A stretch of 34,385 nucleotides of DNA from Nitrososphaerales archaeon (GTDB lineage: Archaea; Thermoproteota; Nitrososphaeria; Nitrososphaerales; UBA213), in NCBI GenBank assembly GCA_038868975.1, contig JAWCSA010000007.1:1-34385 (forward strand). Direction: 5' to 3'. The notes beneath the pieces were generated by a model that searched no databases, was not told the origin of the DNA, and saw only the letters and a list, made by a program, of their open reading frames with translations. A program made the position numbers and the translations under genes. Positions 11,154 to 33,559 of the stretch are shown in pieces; position 1 is the first letter of the stretch, and every line of letters starts with the position of its first letter.

Positions 11154-11192
11154 TTAAAAAAAGCAAAATAGCTGTTGTCATTTTTTCTTTAT
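11154..11192. terminator. Bidirectional poly-T terminator region
   Basis: Convergent genes meet here. On the minus strand a T7 run (plus-strand A-run around 11156-11163) follows the coiled-coil gene. On the plus strand CATTTTTTCTTTA (11180-11192) follows RNase Z. Archaeal transcription ends at such T-runs. The plus-strand run overlaps the last codons of the minus-strand gene. Confidence 0.55.
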
Positions 11193-11723
11193 TGACAATG
11201 TCTTTTGAATTTCGCTTACTGCATTCAGAAACTTCTTCTTTGCCTCGAACTCCTCGTTTGCCTTGATCACTATCTCCGACGGCGAAAGCATTACGTCCTT
11301 CACCACCATAGGTAAGCTCAATCCAAGCACCTCACTCAACATACCAAACAGGTTGGTAAATTTCATACCATCTCTAAAGCTATAGGTAGTGTTACCGTCT
11401 TTGAAGACGGGCACAGGTTCAACAGGAATAACCAAGTCCGGAGATGCAAGTTCTTCTATGAAGGTACTCTTATCCTTTTCAATCATATCAACCAGAAGGT
11501 CTCTTTGCCTGACAAGTTCATCTCTAACCTTTTCAAGACTGCCAAGTTCATCATGATAGTCAATGCCAATCATCTTTGCAAAACTGGTTTCTATTTGACT
11601 CTTGAGGGGAAGCTCGTGAATTCTTGCGTTAACATTTGAAAGCTCTTCGTCAACTTTGAAGAGGTGTTCCCTGTTAGCCTTTATTCTTGCAGCAACCTCT
11701 TCCAGATAGGTAAAGTCAGCCAT
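11178..11723 (-). CDS. Coiled-coil protein encoded next to the tubulin homologue
   Basis: From ATG 11723 the protein is 181 residues. The N-terminal half is a predicted coiled coil rich in Glu, Lys and Leu (including LEEVAARIKANREHLFKVDE and LEKVRDELVRQRDLLVDMIE). A compact middle follows (VIPVEPVPVFKDGNTTYSFR), then a charged helical tail ending in Lys residues. No family recognised. A longer TTG start at 11759 would overlap the tubulin gene; ATG 11723 leaves a 16-base gap and has an AAGGATG ribosome-binding-like stretch upstream, so it is preferred. Tight spacing behind the tubulin homologue makes co-transcription near certain. I infer a partner protein: filament regulator, membrane or cargo adaptor. 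That role is not shown by any motif. Confidence 0.75.
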   Translation of the reverse strand: MADFTYLEEVAARIKANREHLFKVDEELSNVNARIHELPLKSQIETSFAKMIGIDYHDELGSLEKVRDELVRQRDLLVDMIEKDKSTFIEELASPDLVIPVEPVPVFKDGNTTYSFRDGMKFTNLFGMLSEVLGLSLPMVVKDVMLSPSEIVIKANEEFEAKKKFLNAVSEIQKTLSIKKK

Positions 11724-11739
11724 TGCTTGCACATCCTTG

Positions 11740-13122
11740 CTAGCTGAAGTGATGCACAACGTCCATTAGTGCCTGCTTGAACTCCTCATTTGTCAATCCC
11801 CACTTCGCGTACTCCTCCCTATATGAATCCCAGGACTCTTCAGCAACACGTGCAATTTCCAGTATTTTCGGTCCAATCGCCTTTGTGTTTACTAGTATCA
11901 TAACACTTGCTTGCTCTCTTTCGATTATCGGTATCTTGACAAATATCATCCTCGACTCCTCCATGTTGAACCTCTCCTTTATTATCGCCTTCAACGCTTC
12001 TCTTTCCTTCATGTCAAATTCTCCGCTAACCTTCACCAGAGCACAGCAGGAATCTCTTGGGCCGCCCTTGTCCCTAATCACACTTTCATCTAAATCGAAG
12101 AGGATCGCGTCTTCCCGGTGACGCACAGCTTCAATTATTCCTTCCATCGTATTGCTCTTTCCACTAGGGATCAGAGACCAATGACCATCATCAGGCACAA
12201 GCGGTATAACCCATGGGATGGCAAACTTTGGACGTTTCGTTGCAAGCCATGTTCTGTAGTTTGACATGTCCCACTCTGTCTCCCTTGCAAATGAAGCTAT
12301 GAACATAGAGATAGCGTTAGCCGCAAGCAGGTTCATGCCCTTATAGTCCCGCCACCCAACTTCCTGCTCTTTGGGCAGATCGTCAATTATAGATGGAACC
12401 TTGGAAAGCTTCTGGTCAAACCTGTGCGCAAGCTGCCTTAGCGCTTTGTTATCAAGAAGTATGGAACAGTCGGAATATTTTATCTGGTATTCCAAGTTCA
12501 TCACTATATTCACCGTTGCAGCCTCGTATATGACAGGATCCCATCCAAACTCTGGGAGTAGTCCAAAAGTTGCTACCGTCGCACCGCCGCCAATGTCTTT
12601 CTTTATATGCTGCATGAAGGCACATGCAAAGGAGCTGCCAGTTCCTCCACCCATTGCAAAAGGCACCGTAAAACCTCTTACCGGCTCCGGCGACAGTGTT
12701 GCCAGTTGCTTCTGGAAATCGAATTTGGTAGAGACCTCCTTCATGAAACGAGTTCTACCCTCGGCCCAATTTCTAGCCGCTCCACCAGCGCCATGTATTA
12801 CATGTTTGTCCCTCAAAGCAAAGAGATCTGGGTATGACTGAAGAATTAGATTGGCAGCCCTTGGGTCAAGATCCACCAGCAGTGCTCTTGGTATAAGCGG
12901 TACTTCGCCCCCGCCGTACGAATTGGAGAATCTTAGAATAGTACTTCCGTACCTTTTCAGCACCTTGGCCTCTTCCTTCTCACCGTGCAGAACGGGTCTA
13001 AGTGGATCAGCGCCCACATCAAGCAGCAACCTTCTATAGGATTCTGCACCAAGACCTATCCCGCAATGTCCAAAACAGGTCATTATAACTGGCGCGGGTG
13101 GAAGTGGAGCAAATTTAGCCAA
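11740..13122 (-). CDS. Archaeal tubulin homologue (artubulin-like)
   Basis: This 460-residue protein matches tubulin along its length rather than FtsZ or CetZ. Visible are T1 CFGHCGIGLG (16-25), the tubulin-like PRALLVDLDP (78-87), GAGGAARNWAEGR (111-123, compare beta-tubulin GAGNNWAKGH), the tubulin signature GGGTGSS (158-164), FGLLPEFGWDPVIYEAATVN (186-205), SDCSILLDNKALRQLAHR (217-234, the H7 start with the nucleotide-contacting Asn), and a C-terminal domain ending AEESWDSYREEYAKWG, like tubulin H11-H12. It lacks the acidic tail of eukaryotic tubulins. The T7 region reads GMNLLAANAIS and seems to lack the acidic residues of NxDxxE. Artubulins were described from Nitrosoarchaeum. The start is TTG 13122 with an AAGGTG ribosome-binding site. 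It leads a two-gene operon. Confidence 0.9.
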   Translation of the reverse strand: MAKFAPLPPAPVIMTCFGHCGIGLGAESYRRLLLDVGADPLRPVLHGEKEEAKVLKRYGSTILRFSNSYGGGEVPLIPRALLVDLDPRAANLILQSYPDLFALRDKHVIHGAGGAARNWAEGRTRFMKEVSTKFDFQKQLATLSPEPVRGFTVPFAMGGGTGSSFACAFMQHIKKDIGGGATVATFGLLPEFGWDPVIYEAATVNIVMNLEYQIKYSDCSILLDNKALRQLAHRFDQKLSKVPSIIDDLPKEQEVGWRDYKGMNLLAANAISMFIASFARETEWDMSNYRTWLATKRPKFAIPWVIPLVPDDGHWSLIPSGKSNTMEGIIEAVRHREDAILFDLDESVIRDKGGPRDSCCALVKVSGEFDMKEREALKAIIKERFNMEESRMIFVKIPIIEREQASVMILVNTKAIGPKILEIARVAEESWDSYREEYAKWGLTNEEFKQALMDVVHHFS

Positions 13123-13146
13123 ACTCTAGAGCACCTTCCATCATAC

Positions 13147-13218
13147 AGCATATTAGTATGGTTACGATTTAAGGAACATGACGAACCGTTTAGGAACGCA
13201 CTGTCCGGTTAATATGCT
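13147..13218. promoter_or_regulatory. Divergent promoter region with a 9-bp inverted repeat
   Basis: AGCATATTA (13147-13155) is mirrored by TAATATGCT (13210-13218), 54 bases apart, in the gap between the minus-strand tubulin operon and the plus-strand gene at 13285. The spacing would allow one dimeric regulator to bind both arms. AT-rich stretches between the arms (such as GATTTAAGG on plus) could serve as TATA elements. The repeat is plain; regulatory use is inference. Confidence 0.35.
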
Positions 13219-13284
13219 AATTCGCATCATATGCAGATGGATGAATCAGGTAGAATTGAACTGCCAGTTTGGTACTAGCAAAAA

Positions 13285-13950
13285 GTGATGCTATTCCCTT
13301 GGCTACTAACTTTTATTCGTGTATATATAATCAGGCATGTGTTACCTCTTCGCTTACTTGTGATAATTGCAATTGTTCTTGTCTCTATAGGGGCCTTCGT
13401 TCTTATTAGCCCAAACATCCCGGCCAGAAGCAGTGTAAACGATGCAGTCGGAGACGCGGTGCCCGTAAGAGTTCACGAAACGGCCTTGGAGCCAGTGCTA
13501 CAGCCATATCACGATATCAGGAGTGCAAGTGTGCAGCGCTTGAACGGAAAGGAATTGGTGCTAACGTTGGAATTGCTTGGCGATCCTAACCTTAATACTG
13601 AACATGAAATAGTGTACATATGGGTGATGGAATACCCAACTATAGTAGGAACACAGAGGTACACGATAATTGTGCCCCACTTTCCTTCAGAGCTTGGATT
13701 GTCTGCAGGATGGCATATAGCAATATTTGATAACAATGCGCAGAGGTACGTTGTTCCATTGAAAAGCATAGGATCGATGCCAGGCAAGGTCGAGGTAAAC
13801 ATAGATCCTAAGCTAATGGGAAACCCGTCCTTTTTCTGGTGGCAGGCATTTGTAATGATCAGGGTAGAGCTCCAGTTTGACAGGCCACCAGACTTTCTGG
13901 TCGACAGCGCTCCGGATAACTACACTGTGCTATTGGGACCTTTCAGCTGA
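13285..13950 (+). CDS. Membrane-anchored extracytoplasmic protein, unknown function
   Basis: This 221-residue protein begins with a basic/hydrophobic region and a transmembrane segment (about residues 22-43, LRLLVIIAIVLVSIGAFVLI). About 175 residues then lie outside the cell, rich in beta-type sequence with many aromatic residues (FFWWQAFVMIRVEL near the end). No Cys or catalytic motif is evident. The frame starts GTG-ATG (13285/13288); either could be used. It is divergent from the tubulin operon and its end overlaps the convergent isomerase gene by 8 bases. I do not recognise the family. Confidence 0.7.
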   Translation: MMLFPWLLTFIRVYIIRHVLPLRLLVIIAIVLVSIGAFVLISPNIPARSSVNDAVGDAVPVRVHETALEPVLQPYHDIRSASVQRLNGKELVLTLELLGDPNLNTEHEIVYIWVMEYPTIVGTQRYTIIVPHFPSELGLSAGWHIAIFDNNAQRYVVPLKSIGSMPGKVEVNIDPKLMGNPSFFWWQAFVMIRVELQFDRPPDFLVDSAPDNYTVLLGPFS

Positions 13951-20013: not shown

Positions 20014-21402
20014 CTGGTTATTTGCAGATTTGTGCGTAAGGTCTAGATCTCTTATCATTCTGATCTATTTCTTGCAGTTGTGGTTGTATTCTCATGCTTG
20101 CAGCTGAAGTCCCTTCCCCGTTCAAGGGTCTCTTGAAGAGCTTTAACGGTATTCTTAGCAAGCCCCAGCAGAGGAACCTTGCCAGCCTTGTTCTAGGATT
20201 CATTGCAGCGGAGGGAGAGAAGAATGTGAAGGGAATGGCTAACTCACTGGTACCATACAGGAATCAGAGCAGCCTTAACAGATTCATAACAGATGCAAAA
20301 TGGGACTATCGTGCCCTTAACTACAGAAGGCTAAGACTTGTGGAGAAGGAGCTGGGATTGTCAGATAACTCCAATAGCAGCGATAAGCAGTGTTACTTCA
20401 TAGTTGATGATACAACAGTTGAAAAGTACGGTGGTGAAGTGGTTGGATACCATCATGACTCGAAGCATGGATTAATCAGGGGGCACTGCTACGTAACTGG
20501 GCTTTGCGTATGCAGTAGCAACAGCAAAAGCAACAGCAACGGCAGATACGACGATGATGCATGGTACCCAACAGACCTGAAGCTCTACATGCCAGCAGGT
20601 TCCTCTCCCTTTTCAAAGGAGAGACTGTTCAGGAGCAAGATAGATCTTGCATGTGAGCTGATAGACGAATTCAGTCCTCCAGGTGCAGGGAAGGAGGATG
20701 AAGAAGGTGTGATGGTCTCCTTCGATGAATGGTACTTCTGCAGCGAGGTCGTGAAACATGCAGAAGGCAGAGGCTTCCAATGGACAAGTGAAGCAAAGAG
20801 CAACCGCATCATCTTATATCAGGATGAAAGGCTCCATGTGGGCGAGCTTGCAGACATAATGAAACCATTCTTCAGGGATGTTGAAGTTGATGGGGAGCTA
20901 TACCAGTGCTGCGATCTGCAGGTATACATGCCAAGGATAGGCAAGGTCAGGCTGGTCTTCAACTGCAAGGCAGACACAAAGGACATGCACAATATGTGTA
21001 CGAGTATAACAAATGAAAGTGAGCCATTCACAGCAAATATTGTGAAGAGGAGCTTGAAGAGGTCAGAGATCGAATCGTTCTACTGGGATGTGAAGAACGT
21101 GATTGGATTTGGAGAGTATAGATTCAGGGAGAGCGAAGCGGCGATAGTACACTCGCACCTAGTCTTCCTTGTCTATACACTGCTCCAGATCCTGAAGAAG
21201 AGAATGGAGAGCAGAGATGAAGAAAGGAGGGAAGTTATGATGAAAGGTAAGGGAAAGAGATGCAGCATAGGAGAAGCATGCGCATGGCTCAGGGACAGAT
21301 GCCTCCTATCATTCTGCATCTGGATCAAAGATAAGCTCGCAGCAGGACTTGATATCACAAAGATAGCAGGGATGATACGACCACAAATCTGCAAATAACC
21401 AG
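20014..21402 (+). mobile_element. Insertion sequence, copy 1 (IS701/IS4-superfamily-like, 1389 bp)
   Basis: Perfect 21-bp terminal inverted repeats begin CTGGTTATTTGCAGATTTGT at 20014 and mirror at 21382-21402. One transposase gene fills the element. Flanks are TTAA on the left (20010-20013) and CTAA on the right (21403-21406), both of the form NTAA, matching the YTAR-type 4-bp target of IS701-like elements. The flanks are not identical, so this copy no longer has a clean duplication. It appears identical to copy 2 at 24091 over the full length, with a constant offset of 4077. Confidence 0.92.
20094..21398 (+). CDS. DDE transposase of IS copy 1
   Basis: This 434-residue transposase is intact. 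The catalytic triad is readable: FIVDDTTVEKYG (Asp105/106), MVSFDEWYF (Asp211) and RSEIESFYWDVK (Arg323, Glu327, Lys334), the R-x3-E-x6-K signature of the IS4/IS701 superfamily. The N-terminal 90 residues carry the conserved KPQQRNLASLVLGFIAAEGE and YRNQSSLNRFITDAKWD segments of the DNA-binding part. The stop lies 4 bases inside the right end. An intact gene and two seemingly identical copies imply recent activity. Antisense open frames in it are shadows. Confidence 0.93.
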   Translation: MLAAEVPSPFKGLLKSFNGILSKPQQRNLASLVLGFIAAEGEKNVKGMANSLVPYRNQSSLNRFITDAKWDYRALNYRRLRLVEKELGLSDNSNSSDKQCYFIVDDTTVEKYGGEVVGYHHDSKHGLIRGHCYVTGLCVCSSNSKSNSNGRYDDDAWYPTDLKLYMPAGSSPFSKERLFRSKIDLACELIDEFSPPGAGKEDEEGVMVSFDEWYFCSEVVKHAEGRGFQWTSEAKSNRIILYQDERLHVGELADIMKPFFRDVEVDGELYQCCDLQVYMPRIGKVRLVFNCKADTKDMHNMCTSITNESEPFTANIVKRSLKRSEIESFYWDVKNVIGFGEYRFRESEAAIVHSHLVFLVYTLLQILKKRMESRDEERREVMMKGKGKRCSIGEACAWLRDRCLLSFCIWIKDKLAAGLDITKIAGMIRPQICK

Positions 21403-24090: not shown

Positions 24091-25479
24091 CTGGTTATTT
24101 GCAGATTTGTGCGTAAGGTCTAGATCTCTTATCATTCTGATCTATTTCTTGCAGTTGTGGTTGTATTCTCATGCTTGCAGCTGAAGTCCCTTCCCCGTTC
24201 AAGGGTCTCTTGAAGAGCTTTAACGGTATTCTTAGCAAGCCCCAGCAGAGGAACCTTGCCAGCCTTGTTCTAGGATTCATTGCAGCGGAGGGAGAGAAGA
24301 ATGTGAAGGGAATGGCTAACTCACTGGTACCATACAGGAATCAGAGCAGCCTTAACAGATTCATAACAGATGCAAAATGGGACTATCGTGCCCTTAACTA
24401 CAGAAGGCTAAGACTTGTGGAGAAGGAGCTGGGATTGTCAGATAACTCCAATAGCAGCGATAAGCAGTGTTACTTCATAGTTGATGATACAACAGTTGAA
24501 AAGTACGGTGGTGAAGTGGTTGGATACCATCATGACTCGAAGCATGGATTAATCAGGGGGCACTGCTACGTAACTGGGCTTTGCGTATGCAGTAGCAACA
24601 GCAAAAGCAACAGCAACGGCAGATACGACGATGATGCATGGTACCCAACAGACCTGAAGCTCTACATGCCAGCAGGTTCCTCTCCCTTTTCAAAGGAGAG
24701 ACTGTTCAGGAGCAAGATAGATCTTGCATGTGAGCTGATAGACGAATTCAGTCCTCCAGGTGCAGGGAAGGAGGATGAAGAAGGTGTGATGGTCTCCTTC
24801 GATGAATGGTACTTCTGCAGCGAGGTCGTGAAACATGCAGAAGGCAGAGGCTTCCAATGGACAAGTGAAGCAAAGAGCAACCGCATCATCTTATATCAGG
24901 ATGAAAGGCTCCATGTGGGCGAGCTTGCAGACATAATGAAACCATTCTTCAGGGATGTTGAAGTTGATGGGGAGCTATACCAGTGCTGCGATCTGCAGGT
25001 ATACATGCCAAGGATAGGCAAGGTCAGGCTGGTCTTCAACTGCAAGGCAGACACAAAGGACATGCACAATATGTGTACGAGTATAACAAATGAAAGTGAG
25101 CCATTCACAGCAAATATTGTGAAGAGGAGCTTGAAGAGGTCAGAGATCGAATCGTTCTACTGGGATGTGAAGAACGTGATTGGATTTGGAGAGTATAGAT
25201 TCAGGGAGAGCGAAGCGGCGATAGTACACTCGCACCTAGTCTTCCTTGTCTATACACTGCTCCAGATCCTGAAGAAGAGAATGGAGAGCAGAGATGAAGA
25301 AAGGAGGGAAGTTATGATGAAAGGTAAGGGAAAGAGATGCAGCATAGGAGAAGCATGCGCATGGCTCAGGGACAGATGCCTCCTATCATTCTGCATCTGG
25401 ATCAAAGATAAGCTCGCAGCAGGACTTGATATCACAAAGATAGCAGGGATGATACGACCACAAATCTGCAAATAACCAG
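24091..25479 (+). mobile_element. Insertion sequence, copy 2 (1389 bp)
   Basis: Same orientation, length and 21-bp ends as copy 1 (24091-24111 and 25459-25479). Left flank CTAA (24087-24090), right flank ATAA (25480-25483). The inner flanks of the two IS copies are both CTAA, while the outer flanks are TTAA and ATAA. This is what recombination between a chromosomal IS and an IS on a circle would leave. Confidence 0.92.
24171..25475 (+). CDS. DDE transposase of IS copy 2
   Basis: The 434-residue product is identical to that of copy 1, with the same triad (Asp105/106, Asp211, Glu327). Two intact, identical transposases in direct orientation can mobilise the intervening 2688 bp as a composite unit, or delete it by homologous recombination. 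Confidence 0.93.
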   Translation: MLAAEVPSPFKGLLKSFNGILSKPQQRNLASLVLGFIAAEGEKNVKGMANSLVPYRNQSSLNRFITDAKWDYRALNYRRLRLVEKELGLSDNSNSSDKQCYFIVDDTTVEKYGGEVVGYHHDSKHGLIRGHCYVTGLCVCSSNSKSNSNGRYDDDAWYPTDLKLYMPAGSSPFSKERLFRSKIDLACELIDEFSPPGAGKEDEEGVMVSFDEWYFCSEVVKHAEGRGFQWTSEAKSNRIILYQDERLHVGELADIMKPFFRDVEVDGELYQCCDLQVYMPRIGKVRLVFNCKADTKDMHNMCTSITNESEPFTANIVKRSLKRSEIESFYWDVKNVIGFGEYRFRESEAAIVHSHLVFLVYTLLQILKKRMESRDEERREVMMKGKGKRCSIGEACAWLRDRCLLSFCIWIKDKLAAGLDITKIAGMIRPQICK

Positions 25480-30684: not shown

Positions 30685-31044
30685 ATGACACAAAACGAGA
30701 ACGAGAACGATACAAATCCGGCTTATCTATTCAGCAAGACGTTGAAGCGCAGCACCGAAACTCAAGCTGAGTTTTTGAGACGAATGGCATCAATGCAGTT
30801 CGAAACTATGCAAGGATTGATGAATGTGCTGCATACAATAACCAACTTTAATGCCGTATTCAAAGCAACAGTACAGAGCAATGGAAGGATATCGATCCCT
30901 GAAGCAGAGAGAGAGGCACTAGGGATAGAAGATGGAGATCTAGTCCAAGTCATCATAGTTCCCCTCGAAAAGGGAAAGGAACGAACTAAGGTCAAGGACG
31001 ATTCCCAAAAATTTCAAATAAAAGGAGGTGTAAAGATTGAGTGA
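30685..31044 (+). CDS. AbrB/SpoVT-domain protein of the PHA locus
   Basis: This 119-residue protein combines an N-terminal amphipathic helical stretch (about residues 12-50, KTLKRSTETQAEFLRRMASM) with a swapped-hairpin AbrB domain (about 53-92: FKATVQSNGRISIPEAEREA, LGIEDGDLVQVIIVP). AbrB-type regulators sit in haloarchaeal PHA loci and can regulate PHA genes. The extra helical part may bind granules or the phasin, making a granule-responsive repressor plausible. Its last codons overlap the ribosome-binding site and TTG start of the next gene. Confidence 0.78.
   Translation: MTQNENENDTNPAYLFSKTLKRSTETQAEFLRRMASMQFETMQGLMNVLHTITNFNAVFKATVQSNGRISIPEAEREALGIEDGDLVQVIIVPLEKGKERTKVKDDSQKFQIKGGVKIE
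31021..31030 (+). promoter_or_regulatory. Strong Shine-Dalgarno deciding the TTG start of the phasin gene
   Basis: AAAGGAGGTG lies 6 bases before TTG 31037 and is close to a perfect complement of the 16S rRNA 3' end. It lies within the AbrB-domain gene. A comparable AAAGGTGG precedes the TTG start of phaE, while many other genes here seem leaderless. Confidence 0.8.
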
Positions 31045-31450
31045 GAAGAGACAAGAGAAAGACGCCTTTGATATTTATCAGGAAAGTGTTGCGAATGTAA
31101 TTGAAGAGGTAGCAAAGCTGCAACCAGCTTACATACAGTCACTAACAAACCTACAGCATGAGTGCACAGAAGCATTCAAAAGAGCTGTCGAGTCAACAAT
31201 AACTGTACAGAAAGAATTTGCAAATGCGACATGGGGTCCAGGTAAATTCCCAGCTGCAGTTGCAAGGAATGCCAGCGAAAGTACTGATGCGTTGGTGAAG
31301 GCCGTATCAACAAGCAACAAGGCAATTATAGCAACTGTTGATGCAACGACACAGAACATAAGAACCTTCAGTGATACTATTAACACATTCGCAAAGATAA
31401 ACCAAAACCTGATAAAGACATGGCAGAGTTTTGTACCATCTAGAGCGTAG
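31037..31450 (+). CDS. phaP: Phasin-like PHA granule protein
   Basis: This 137-residue, almost entirely helical protein is rich in Ala, Thr, Asn and Gln with amphipathic periodicity (ESVANVIEEVAKLQPAYIQS, EAFKRAVESTITVQKEFANA, TDALVKAVSTSNKAIIATVD). It has no Cys and no signal peptide. The pattern fits phasins, which coat PHA granules and control their size. Context supports it: AbrB-domain gene upstream, phaE-phaC facing it. Sequence similarity among phasins is low, so the name rests partly on position. A T-rich stretch follows the stop. Confidence 0.72.
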   Translation: MSEKRQEKDAFDIYQESVANVIEEVAKLQPAYIQSLTNLQHECTEAFKRAVESTITVQKEFANATWGPGKFPAAVARNASESTDALVKAVSTSNKAIIATVDATTQNIRTFSDTINTFAKINQNLIKTWQSFVPSRA

Positions 31451-31459
31451 ATGGTAAAA

Positions 31460-31492
31460 TACATCTTTTTATTTTTAAAGCCTTTTTAGGTT
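31460..31492 (+). terminator. T-rich terminator after the phasin gene
   Basis: Runs TTTTT, ATTTTT and CCTTTTT follow the phasin stop at 31450 and fit archaeal intrinsic termination. The TTTTTAAAG portion may also serve as the TATA element of the next gene (GTG 31513). Confidence 0.5.
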
Positions 31493-31512
31493 CCTATGTT
31501 ATCCCCATATAC

Positions 31513-31875
31513 GTGGACTACAGGGAGCTTTGCGGTAAAATATTGGGCATTAACAAGGATATTCGTTTTGTGGGTTTTATTAACAGATCGGGCAAGCTTA
31601 TCGAAGGAGGTATGAGACCAGGCCTTGAATCTCTTGATGACGAGATCCATCAGAAACGCTGGTTCAACCAGGTTGCTATGCGAGCGGAGATGTACGAGAT
31701 GTTTAATAAGATATATGGAAAGACTAACGTAGTTTATGTTGAAAGAGAAAAACTGAAACAGCTCACATTTTATAGAGGAGACAAGATATTGCTAGTAACC
31801 CTGCAGCCATCTGTTGATAGCAACAAGGCTTTAGAAATAGTACGAACTATAGAGAAGATCCTTGACTCTACATGA
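31513..31875 (+). CDS. Small conserved protein of the type common in Nitrososphaerota
   Basis: This 120-residue protein opens DYRELCGKILGINKDIRFVG and contains FINRSGKLIEGGMRPGLESL, EMYEMFNKIYGKTNVVYVER and DKILLVTLQPSVDSNKALEI. It looks like a roadblock/profilin-like alpha-beta fold (sensor-like) and resembles a family often present in many copies in ammonia-oxidising archaea (DUF6659-like, from memory). GTG 31513 with an upstream T-rich/TATA stretch suggests a leaderless mRNA. It converges with phaC, 3 bases between stops. No function assigned. Confidence 0.65.
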   Translation: MDYRELCGKILGINKDIRFVGFINRSGKLIEGGMRPGLESLDDEIHQKRWFNQVAMRAEMYEMFNKIYGKTNVVYVEREKLKQLTFYRGDKILLVTLQPSVDSNKALEIVRTIEKILDST

Positions 31876-31878
31876 GCA

Positions 31879-32955
31879 CTAACGTACCGATCTTTCCTTT
31901 AACCATGATGCCACGTCTGGAATTATACGCTCCTGTGAGTATTTGCTTGAAAGTAAACCTATATGACCTGTAGGATAAACCTTGAGCTCCTTGTCCTCGC
32001 TTGATACGTTATAGTTAAGTGGTATACTGCATTCAGGTGATACCAAGTGATCGTCTTCTGCCACGACTGTAAGTAATGGCACATCGATCTTACGTAGGTC
32101 AATCAGCTTATCGCCAAGTTTCATCTGATTTTTAACAAGCAAATTTTTCTGGTAAATATCCTTTATCCACTGTCTGAATGTTTCACCAGCTATGGGCGGT
32201 GTGTCGTAAAGCCATTTTTCGACACGTAAGAAATTTTGAACAAAATCGGTATCGTGAAGGTTGTTTGTGAATTCTATATATTTTCTTACATTCTGCTTGA
32301 AAGGCTTCAATATGCTGTAGCAAAGATACAGGAATTCAGGTGGTATGTTTCCGTAATTGTTTATTAGCAGATCAGCGTCTATATGTTTGGATAGATTGCC
32401 TAAGACGGTCGTGTCCTTCTCGCTATCAATGACAGGCGCTGTGACATACAGATTCTTTACCTTTTCTCCATGAAGCGATGCATACATTACGGACATAGTT
32501 CCGCCCATGCAATAGCCATGAATTGAAATCTTTTCTTGATAAGAAGCGTCCCTTACCAAGTCGACAAAATAATCTATGAATCTGTTGACATAGTCATCAA
32601 ATGTTAAATATTGATCTATTTGTTCAGGTTCACCCCAGTCTATCATATAAACATCAAAACCTTGGTTCAGCATACCCCTCACCCAGCTCCTATCTGGTTG
32701 AAGATCCAGCACATAATACTTGTTTATGAGAGCATAGACTACCAACAGAGGAACAGGATGGGGTTTTTCGACAAATGGCTTGTAATGCAGCAACCGTATA
32801 TTCCTCCCCTTATGAACTACATCTGCTGGTGTCGTTCCAACATCGATACTGCCAATACTTTTCGCCGCTTTAGAAACCTGCAATACACCTTTGTTGAATT
32901 GCTGTATTTGCTGCATAATGGTCAAAAATATATCGGAGTAATCTTTCTTACTCAT
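31879..32955 (-). CDS. phaC: Class III PHA synthase catalytic subunit
   Basis: From ATG 32955 the protein is 358 residues, the normal length for class III PhaC. It polymerises hydroxyacyl-CoA into polyhydroxyalkanoate on granules together with PhaE. The lipase-like box is GYCMGG with nucleophile Cys149; the acid is AEDDHLVSP (Asp302) and the base TGHIGLLSS (His331). These numbers equal those known for Allochromatium vinosum PhaC, supporting this start over the frame's earlier TTG (32973). Other family stretches: YALINKYYVLDLQPDRSWVR and GFDVYMIDWGEP. The start lies 1 base after the phaE stop (TGAAATG), so the two are translationally coupled. Confidence 0.95.
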   Translation of the reverse strand: MSKKDYSDIFLTIMQQIQQFNKGVLQVSKAAKSIGSIDVGTTPADVVHKGRNIRLLHYKPFVEKPHPVPLLVVYALINKYYVLDLQPDRSWVRGMLNQGFDVYMIDWGEPEQIDQYLTFDDYVNRFIDYFVDLVRDASYQEKISIHGYCMGGTMSVMYASLHGEKVKNLYVTAPVIDSEKDTTVLGNLSKHIDADLLINNYGNIPPEFLYLCYSILKPFKQNVRKYIEFTNNLHDTDFVQNFLRVEKWLYDTPPIAGETFRQWIKDIYQKNLLVKNQMKLGDKLIDLRKIDVPLLTVVAEDDHLVSPECSIPLNYNVSSEDKELKVYPTGHIGLLSSKYSQERIIPDVASWLKERSVR

Positions 32956-32956
32956 T

Positions 32957-33559
32957 TCACAAAACCTTAGCAATATCCTTCTTCTTTCCTCCAGAAATTT
33001 CTTCTATGACATCTGAGATCTCTTTCAGTTTCTTCTTTATGCGTTCTATCTCTTCATAGACACTTTCGATCTCACTGCGTGTTGGCATGTCGAGGTTTTT
33101 GGAATAAATTTCAACGAGTTTCCGTACATGCACATTAAACTGTACTTCATGTTTTAGCAACTCACCAAAAATCATAGCAAACTCTTCTGAATCAAAAAGG
33201 GTTGTAAATTCGTCTTCAAACGTTTCGATCCAGATCTTCTTTACCTCTTCCTTTGACTTTTCATCTGTTATATCAATAGGACACTTAGCCAATACCTTTC
33301 TTGTTGCCTCAATCCATGTAGCACTAACCTTAGCATAGTACCGCGTCAATATTTTATTAAAAGCCGTAAGCTCTTCTGTAGCTTTTGCAAGTTCAGCATT
33401 TATTGTTACGGAATTCTTTATTAAACTCGCAGCAGGACCGATAGTTGGCATTTCAGGAGTTCTATTCTGCAACCAGTTAAGGGTATCGGCCCACGACTCG
33501 ATCATATTTTTTAATATCTCAGAATTTTCCTTATCGTTAGACTGTGACTTGTCTGTCAA
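32957..33559 (-). CDS. phaE: Class III PHA synthase subunit PhaE
   Basis: This 200-residue helical protein ends with the family's typical C-terminus (DMPTRSEIESVYEEIERIKK then KLKEISDVIEEISGG), a coiled coil that follows the 'P-T-R-S-E' motif. Upstream are DTLNWLQNRTPEMPTIGPAA and ATRKVLAKCPIDITDEKSKE. It is shorter than the bacterial PhaE of purple sulfur bacteria, as usual in archaea. PhaE is needed for PhaC activity. The TTG start at 33559 is fixed by AAAGGTGG a few bases upstream on the minus strand. First gene of a phaE-phaC operon. Confidence 0.9.
   Translation of the reverse strand: MTDKSQSNDKENSEILKNMIESWADTLNWLQNRTPEMPTIGPAASLIKNSVTINAELAKATEELTAFNKILTRYYAKVSATWIEATRKVLAKCPIDITDEKSKEEVKKIWIETFEDEFTTLFDSEEFAMIFGELLKHEVQFNVHVRKLVEIYSKNLDMPTRSEIESVYEEIERIKKKLKEISDVIEEISGGKKKDIAKVL

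Follow-up and report, generated by a model that had tools for sequence, protein, structure and literature searches.

An artubulin gene and its near-constant downstream partner in Nitrososphaerales

The main result of this study is the near-obligate linkage, on the same strand, between artubulin genes and a small uncharacterized gene located immediately downstream; the constancy of this partner gene is a new clue to the role of artubulin. In the analyzed window, that is, the whole 34,385-nucleotide stretch of a Nitrososphaerales contig (JAWCSA010000007.1), the artubulin gene occupies positions 11740..13122 and the partner gene positions 11178..11723, both on the minus strand. Artubulins, a tubulin-family group of Nitrososphaerota, are known since 2012 (Yutin & Koonin 2012, PMC3349469) and earlier trees (PMC9871819, PMC13394414) already treat them as a group. 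No text treating the downstream gene as a family was found in the literature searched; in the 2012 article, a figure key contains one "conserved hypothetical protein" that could be the partner gene (PMC3349469).

Assignment of the window gene to the artubulins

The frame at 11740-13122 is open throughout and encodes 460 aa with zero internal stops, in agreement with the first-pass annotation. The TTG start agrees with homologues, which start at the same position with ATG, and the 162-bp intergenic stretch between this gene and the divergent gene at 13285 (13123..13284, no strand assigned) is, judging from the coordinates, the presumed promoter region. The only Pfam domain is the Tubulin/FtsZ GTPase domain (residues 13-231, 60.2 bits versus a cut-off of 33), which is matched by all 33 aligned artubulins. 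The window protein is 54-85% identical to the 32 other artubulins over nearly the full length, and ten sampled artubulins form a single clade in the tree (100/100). Based on the sequence, alignments, and conserved columns, the GTP-binding signature loops (residues 18-228, positions 12439..13071, minus strand) are assigned as T1 GHCGIGLG, T2 DLDP, T3 GAGGAARNWAEG, T4 GGGTGSS, and T6 DNKAL. All motifs listed in the first-pass annotation were recovered, at residues 18-25 (T1), 78-87 (PRALLVDLDP), 111-122 (T3), 158-164 (T4), and 217-234 (SDCSILLDNKALRQLAHR).

A profile of 33 artubulins was compared with profiles of tubulin (human alpha, beta, and gamma, of which alpha and beta agree with PDB entries), CetZ (two PDB sequences), and FtsZ (the FtsZ of the same genome and two haloarchaeal ones). 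Tubulin is the best match by many orders of magnitude, with E-values of 5e-16 for tubulin, 4e-4 for CetZ, and 0.02 for FtsZ at full length, and of about 1e-17, 8e-4, and 3e-3, respectively, for the GTPase half alone. When solved structures were ranked by sequence, Asgard tubulins came first (E 7e-19), followed by gamma, alpha, and beta tubulins; the top-scoring ones, matched in the GTPase half, are the Asgard proteins AtubA/AtubB (PMC13394414; PDB 9f6t, 24rt) and OdinTubulin (7evb). In the tree of the GTPase half, a branch with support 100/99 unites artubulins and tubulins, leaving CetZ and FtsZ outside, and a constraint grouping artubulin with CetZ was rejected (p 0.004). Convergence of a diverged FtsZ or CetZ paralogue toward tubulin is another conceivable origin, as the GGGTGS loop is common to all these proteins, the Pfam Tubulin model spans both families, and the C-terminal half of artubulin fits neither of them well. 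Such an origin is highly improbable given the profile and PDB scores, the rejected grouping with CetZ, and the separate normal FtsZ encoded on contig C28 of the same genome, which scores 326 bits on the FtsZ model TIGR00065, a model that artubulin does not match. By its sequence, the window gene is thus identified as an artubulin, a tubulin-family GTPase of Nitrososphaerota; profiles, PDB ranking, and tree agree with the earlier call of a genuine tubulin homologue distinct from FtsZ and CetZ, which have the superfamily GTPase core in common with it but match its profile far more weakly.

Where artubulins stand with respect to the eukaryotic and Asgard tubulins is less certain. The artubulin branch, with 2.03 changes per column in the GTPase-half tree, is long, support for the tubulin clade where artubulins attach is 32/75, and a 2026 study states that the position of artubulins was never fully resolved (PMC13394414). 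The tree upholds the union of artubulins with tubulins but gives no firm position among them. The first-pass annotation expected any further member to bear on the origin of the eukaryotic cytoskeleton; one more member alone does not settle where tubulin came from.

In tubulin, much of the longitudinal interface is formed by the C-terminal half. The full-length profile alignment with tubulin extends to the artubulin C-terminus; the C-terminal half alone is at control level, with a score of 18.3 against 22.7 for the best of 60 column-shuffled controls. None of the 33 artubulins matches Tubulin_C (PF03953), and only the GTPase half aligns significantly with the Asgard tubulins. Santana-Molina and colleagues likewise observed in a profile search that artubulin C-termini differ from those of other groups (PMC9871819). 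The AlphaFold model of artubulin is poor (mean pLDDT 49); two helices are predicted near the C-terminus of this low-confidence model (418-440 and 445-459), and a Foldseek search with it retrieved tubulins only, yet with TM of about 0.2, and was not relied on. The tubulin-like helical end suggested earlier is therefore unconfirmed, and the poor model gives no backing to the two-domain tubulin fold that the first-pass annotation had named as support.

The GTP-binding loops and the guanine contacts of helix H7 align between artubulin and eukaryotic alpha, beta, and gamma tubulins. In the full-length profile alignment, the alpha-tubulin guanine contacts Y224 and N228 correspond to artubulin Y260 and N264, both invariant in 33 artubulins. 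Within the T7 block RETEWDMSNYRTWL (residues 280-293, positions 12244..12285, minus strand), whose mapping is likewise derived from the profile alignment, alpha-tubulin D251 corresponds to D285, so that the aspartate is kept, and the catalytic E254 corresponds to an invariant Asn, N288, an assignment made from one profile alignment. By this alignment, artubulin lacks the catalytic acidic residue of T7 (alpha E254 / FtsZ D212). Further differences from the eukaryotic tubulins are a conserved insertion (SIIDDLPKE..VGW, around S244-W257) that is specific to artubulins and separates H6 from H7, and a C-terminal domain that is unrecognizable by sequence alone. GTP hydrolysis by tubulin depends on E254; since beta and gamma tubulin are likewise without Glu at this position, its loss does not disqualify artubulin from the tubulin family. 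We infer from the invariant N288 that GTP hydrolysis by artubulin is slow or absent.

The Asn at the catalytic position and the very divergent C-terminal half would also suit a GTP-binding regulator in which the nucleotide pocket has been retained but filaments are no longer formed. However, R280-L293 is almost wholly invariant in 33 artubulins, D285 included, and is the best-conserved stretch of the C-terminal half. In tubulin polymers the T7 block of one subunit completes the active site of the adjoining one, and its conservation in artubulins fits selection on a subunit-subunit contact; a non-polymerizing role is thus unlikely, and polymerization remains the preferred reading.

Other genes with related GTPase domains were noticed in this genome and in the order. 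On contig C33 (L002:1474-2442), beside a MiaB-like gene, is the gene for an FtsZ-like protein of 322 aa, whose GTPase domain is of the FtsZ type and whose branch is very long. Elsewhere in the order, other families encode proteins of roughly 900 aa (loci L015-L024, for instance L017:2-2223, minus strand), in which a Tubulin_2-type GTPase domain is followed by a long coiled-coil-like sequence; their genes adjoin a membrane-protein-like gene, and they possibly represent another filament or membrane system.

The partner gene and its linkage to artubulin

The partner gene encodes 181 aa from the ATG at 11723, located 16 nt past the artubulin stop, and its frame extends to a TTG at 11759. It follows artubulin in all 11 loci first compared, including both copies of this genome. 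We surveyed 400 genomes from across the order and found 97 artubulin loci in 94 of them. At 93 of these loci the partner lies 5-21 nt past artubulin in the same orientation; at the other four, the artubulin match is cut short (G334, G326, and G335) or the two genes are split between contigs (G296). Of the 77 loci in named GTDB genomes whose artubulin ORF could be scored, 74 have the pair, and at the remaining three the sequence ends 45, 139, and 545 nt past artubulin. The next commonest neighbor family occurs in 34 of these 77 loci. The first-pass annotation had correctly recognized the artubulin at this locus, but it overlooked the conserved partner as well as the other artubulin copy carried by this genome.

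Tight packing alone can keep gene order among close relatives, and the partner family also exists without artubulin, so the two genes might be adjacent merely through joint inheritance or transfer, with no joint action. Yet the linkage spans four families and persists where identity has dropped to about 53% for artubulin and 24-28% for the partner, with all other artubulin neighbors reshuffled across the compared genomes; the partner was duplicated along with artubulin; and it has decayed in three cases where artubulin is gone. In these three genomes (G013, G182, and G219) the partner is present only in a frameshifted or fragmentary form, which in one case is on a short contig, and no artubulin trace was found in the flanks searched, as would be expected of a partner that is no longer needed once artubulin is gone. 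Adjacency without joint action accordingly seems rather doubtful to us, and the action of the two proteins in a common system is preferred.

Some function of the partner is nevertheless independent of artubulin, because families f2 and f7 carry it without artubulin, as full-length copies and short versions, respectively. The f2 partner gene adjoins a radical SAM gene, and no other tubulin was seen beside the partner in the artubulin-less families. In f7 (L180-L184), the short partners are located amid ribosome-biogenesis-like genes, named from their sequences as Nep1-like, RNase P subunit, and S19e.

The AlphaFold model of the partner is confident (pLDDT 92) and consists of an antiparallel helical hairpin (residues 4-37 and 59-92) followed by a small alpha/beta domain (106-180). 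Three residues close to the hairpin tip, F48, G53, and D58, are strongly conserved, family f2 included. The partner belongs to no Pfam family, its Foldseek search against solved structures returned nothing below E 0.06, and its profile matched mostly coiled coils among solved structures, with E above 0.01. As for individual candidates, Snf7 was rejected, and the matches to Spc24 and Dam1 are weak and at chance level.

Two pairs in one genome, distribution, and the Snf7 neighbor

A second artubulin copy, 85% identical to that of the window, was found on contig C69 with its own partner (L026:1312-3247), next to a Na+/H+ exchanger gene and not to the neighbors seen in the window. Between the window contig and C69, the non-synonymous/synonymous difference is 0.08/0.78 for artubulin and 0.23/0.87 for the partner. 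The duplication of the pair is old, because the synonymous sites are saturated, and both artubulin-partner pairs are old and under constraint. In the tree, both copies are adjacent at the base of the Nitrosopumilaceae-type artubulins, their order being weakly supported (82/66). The second pair is on a separate 10.4-kb contig, and strays can occur in a draft bin with 133 contigs, so it could be a binning artefact from another organism. This is quite unlikely in view of the estimated contamination of 0.31%, the similar GC content (0.414 versus 0.42), the common position of both copies near the base of the Nitrosopumilaceae-type artubulins, and the presence of two pairs also in G374, though the bin of the latter is less clean.

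The 94 artubulin carriers among the 400 genomes surveyed belong to four families and include non-ammonia-oxidizers, a wider range than the "few Nitrososphaerota" of the first-pass annotation. In a phylum-wide sample, artubulin was found in 23 of 398 genomes, all within this order, and no artubulin relatives were found in plasmids. The host is an ammonia oxidizer, because archaeal amoA is present, and belongs to family f1, whereas most artubulin relatives are in a separate family, f9; among the artubulin carriers tested, those of f10 and f13 are without amoA. The host family is not named in the literature searched. The artubulins of Nitrosarchaeum and Nitrosotenuis (PMC3349469, PMC3835317) belong to the same family as that of the window, with about 73-76% identity over the full length for the members compared, and likewise coexist with FtsZ. 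In contrast to them, the present host is an ammonia oxidizer of another family and has two copies and no Snf7 neighbor; in contrast to those accounts, the downstream partner gene is described here for the artubulin family. A Nitrosotenuis-type artubulin pair is also present in L062 (BMAH01000059.1), titled "Gammaproteobacteria bacterium BBSC-SA02", which is probably a mislabelled or mixed assembly.

The Snf7 neighbor of artubulin was stressed in 2012, and cooperation with Snf7/ESCRT-III in division was proposed (PMC3349469). Among 11 genomes searched, Snf7 is next to artubulin only in three genomes of one genus (g26), and the Snf7 genes of the present host are on contigs C55 and C103, not on the window contig. 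The Snf7 neighbor is also absent in Nitrosotenuis uzonensis (PMC3835317), and therefore Snf7 adjacency does not define artubulins. The 2012 division idea thus rests on a neighbor seen here in one genus only and far less constant than the partner gene.

Two other loci of the window deserve mention. Two identical 434-aa transposase-like ORFs (20094-21398 and 24171-25475) surround about 2.8 kb with secreted-protein-like genes, a possible composite transposon. Positions 30685-33559 probably contain a polyhydroxyalkanoate synthase cluster, recognized from sequence only, with a synthase-like gene at 31879-32973 and phasin-like neighbors.

Proposed mechanism and significance

The reading that we favor, and consider fairly probable from sequence evidence, is that of a GTP-binding artubulin filament assembled head to tail, with a dedicated accessory protein encoded by the next gene. 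Artubulin and its partner would be co-transcribed as a single unit; artubulin would bind GTP through the conserved tubulin loops and could assemble head to tail into a cytoskeletal filament, which, with N288 at the catalytic position, would hydrolyze GTP slowly or not at all. The partner may interact with this filament as a dedicated accessory protein, for instance, a cross-linker, a capper, or an adaptor for membrane or cargo. More speculatively, in a two-gene filament system with an accessory protein of a new fold, the old duplication of the pair could have given rise to two specialized filaments or to a mixed polymer, a split resembling that of alpha and beta tubulin and independent of eukaryotes; we offer this only as an outside possibility.

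No functional test of artubulins was found in the literature searched. The near-constant operon partner provides a concrete handle for such a test, namely two small proteins that can be co-expressed, and the gene is carried by several named organisms with cells open to examination, for example Nitrosotalea devanaterra and Nitrosotenuis. Outside the Asgard archaea, artubulins belong to the prokaryotic proteins most closely related to tubulin, and for this family the focus moves from Snf7, a neighbor in one genus here, to a partner linked across four families.
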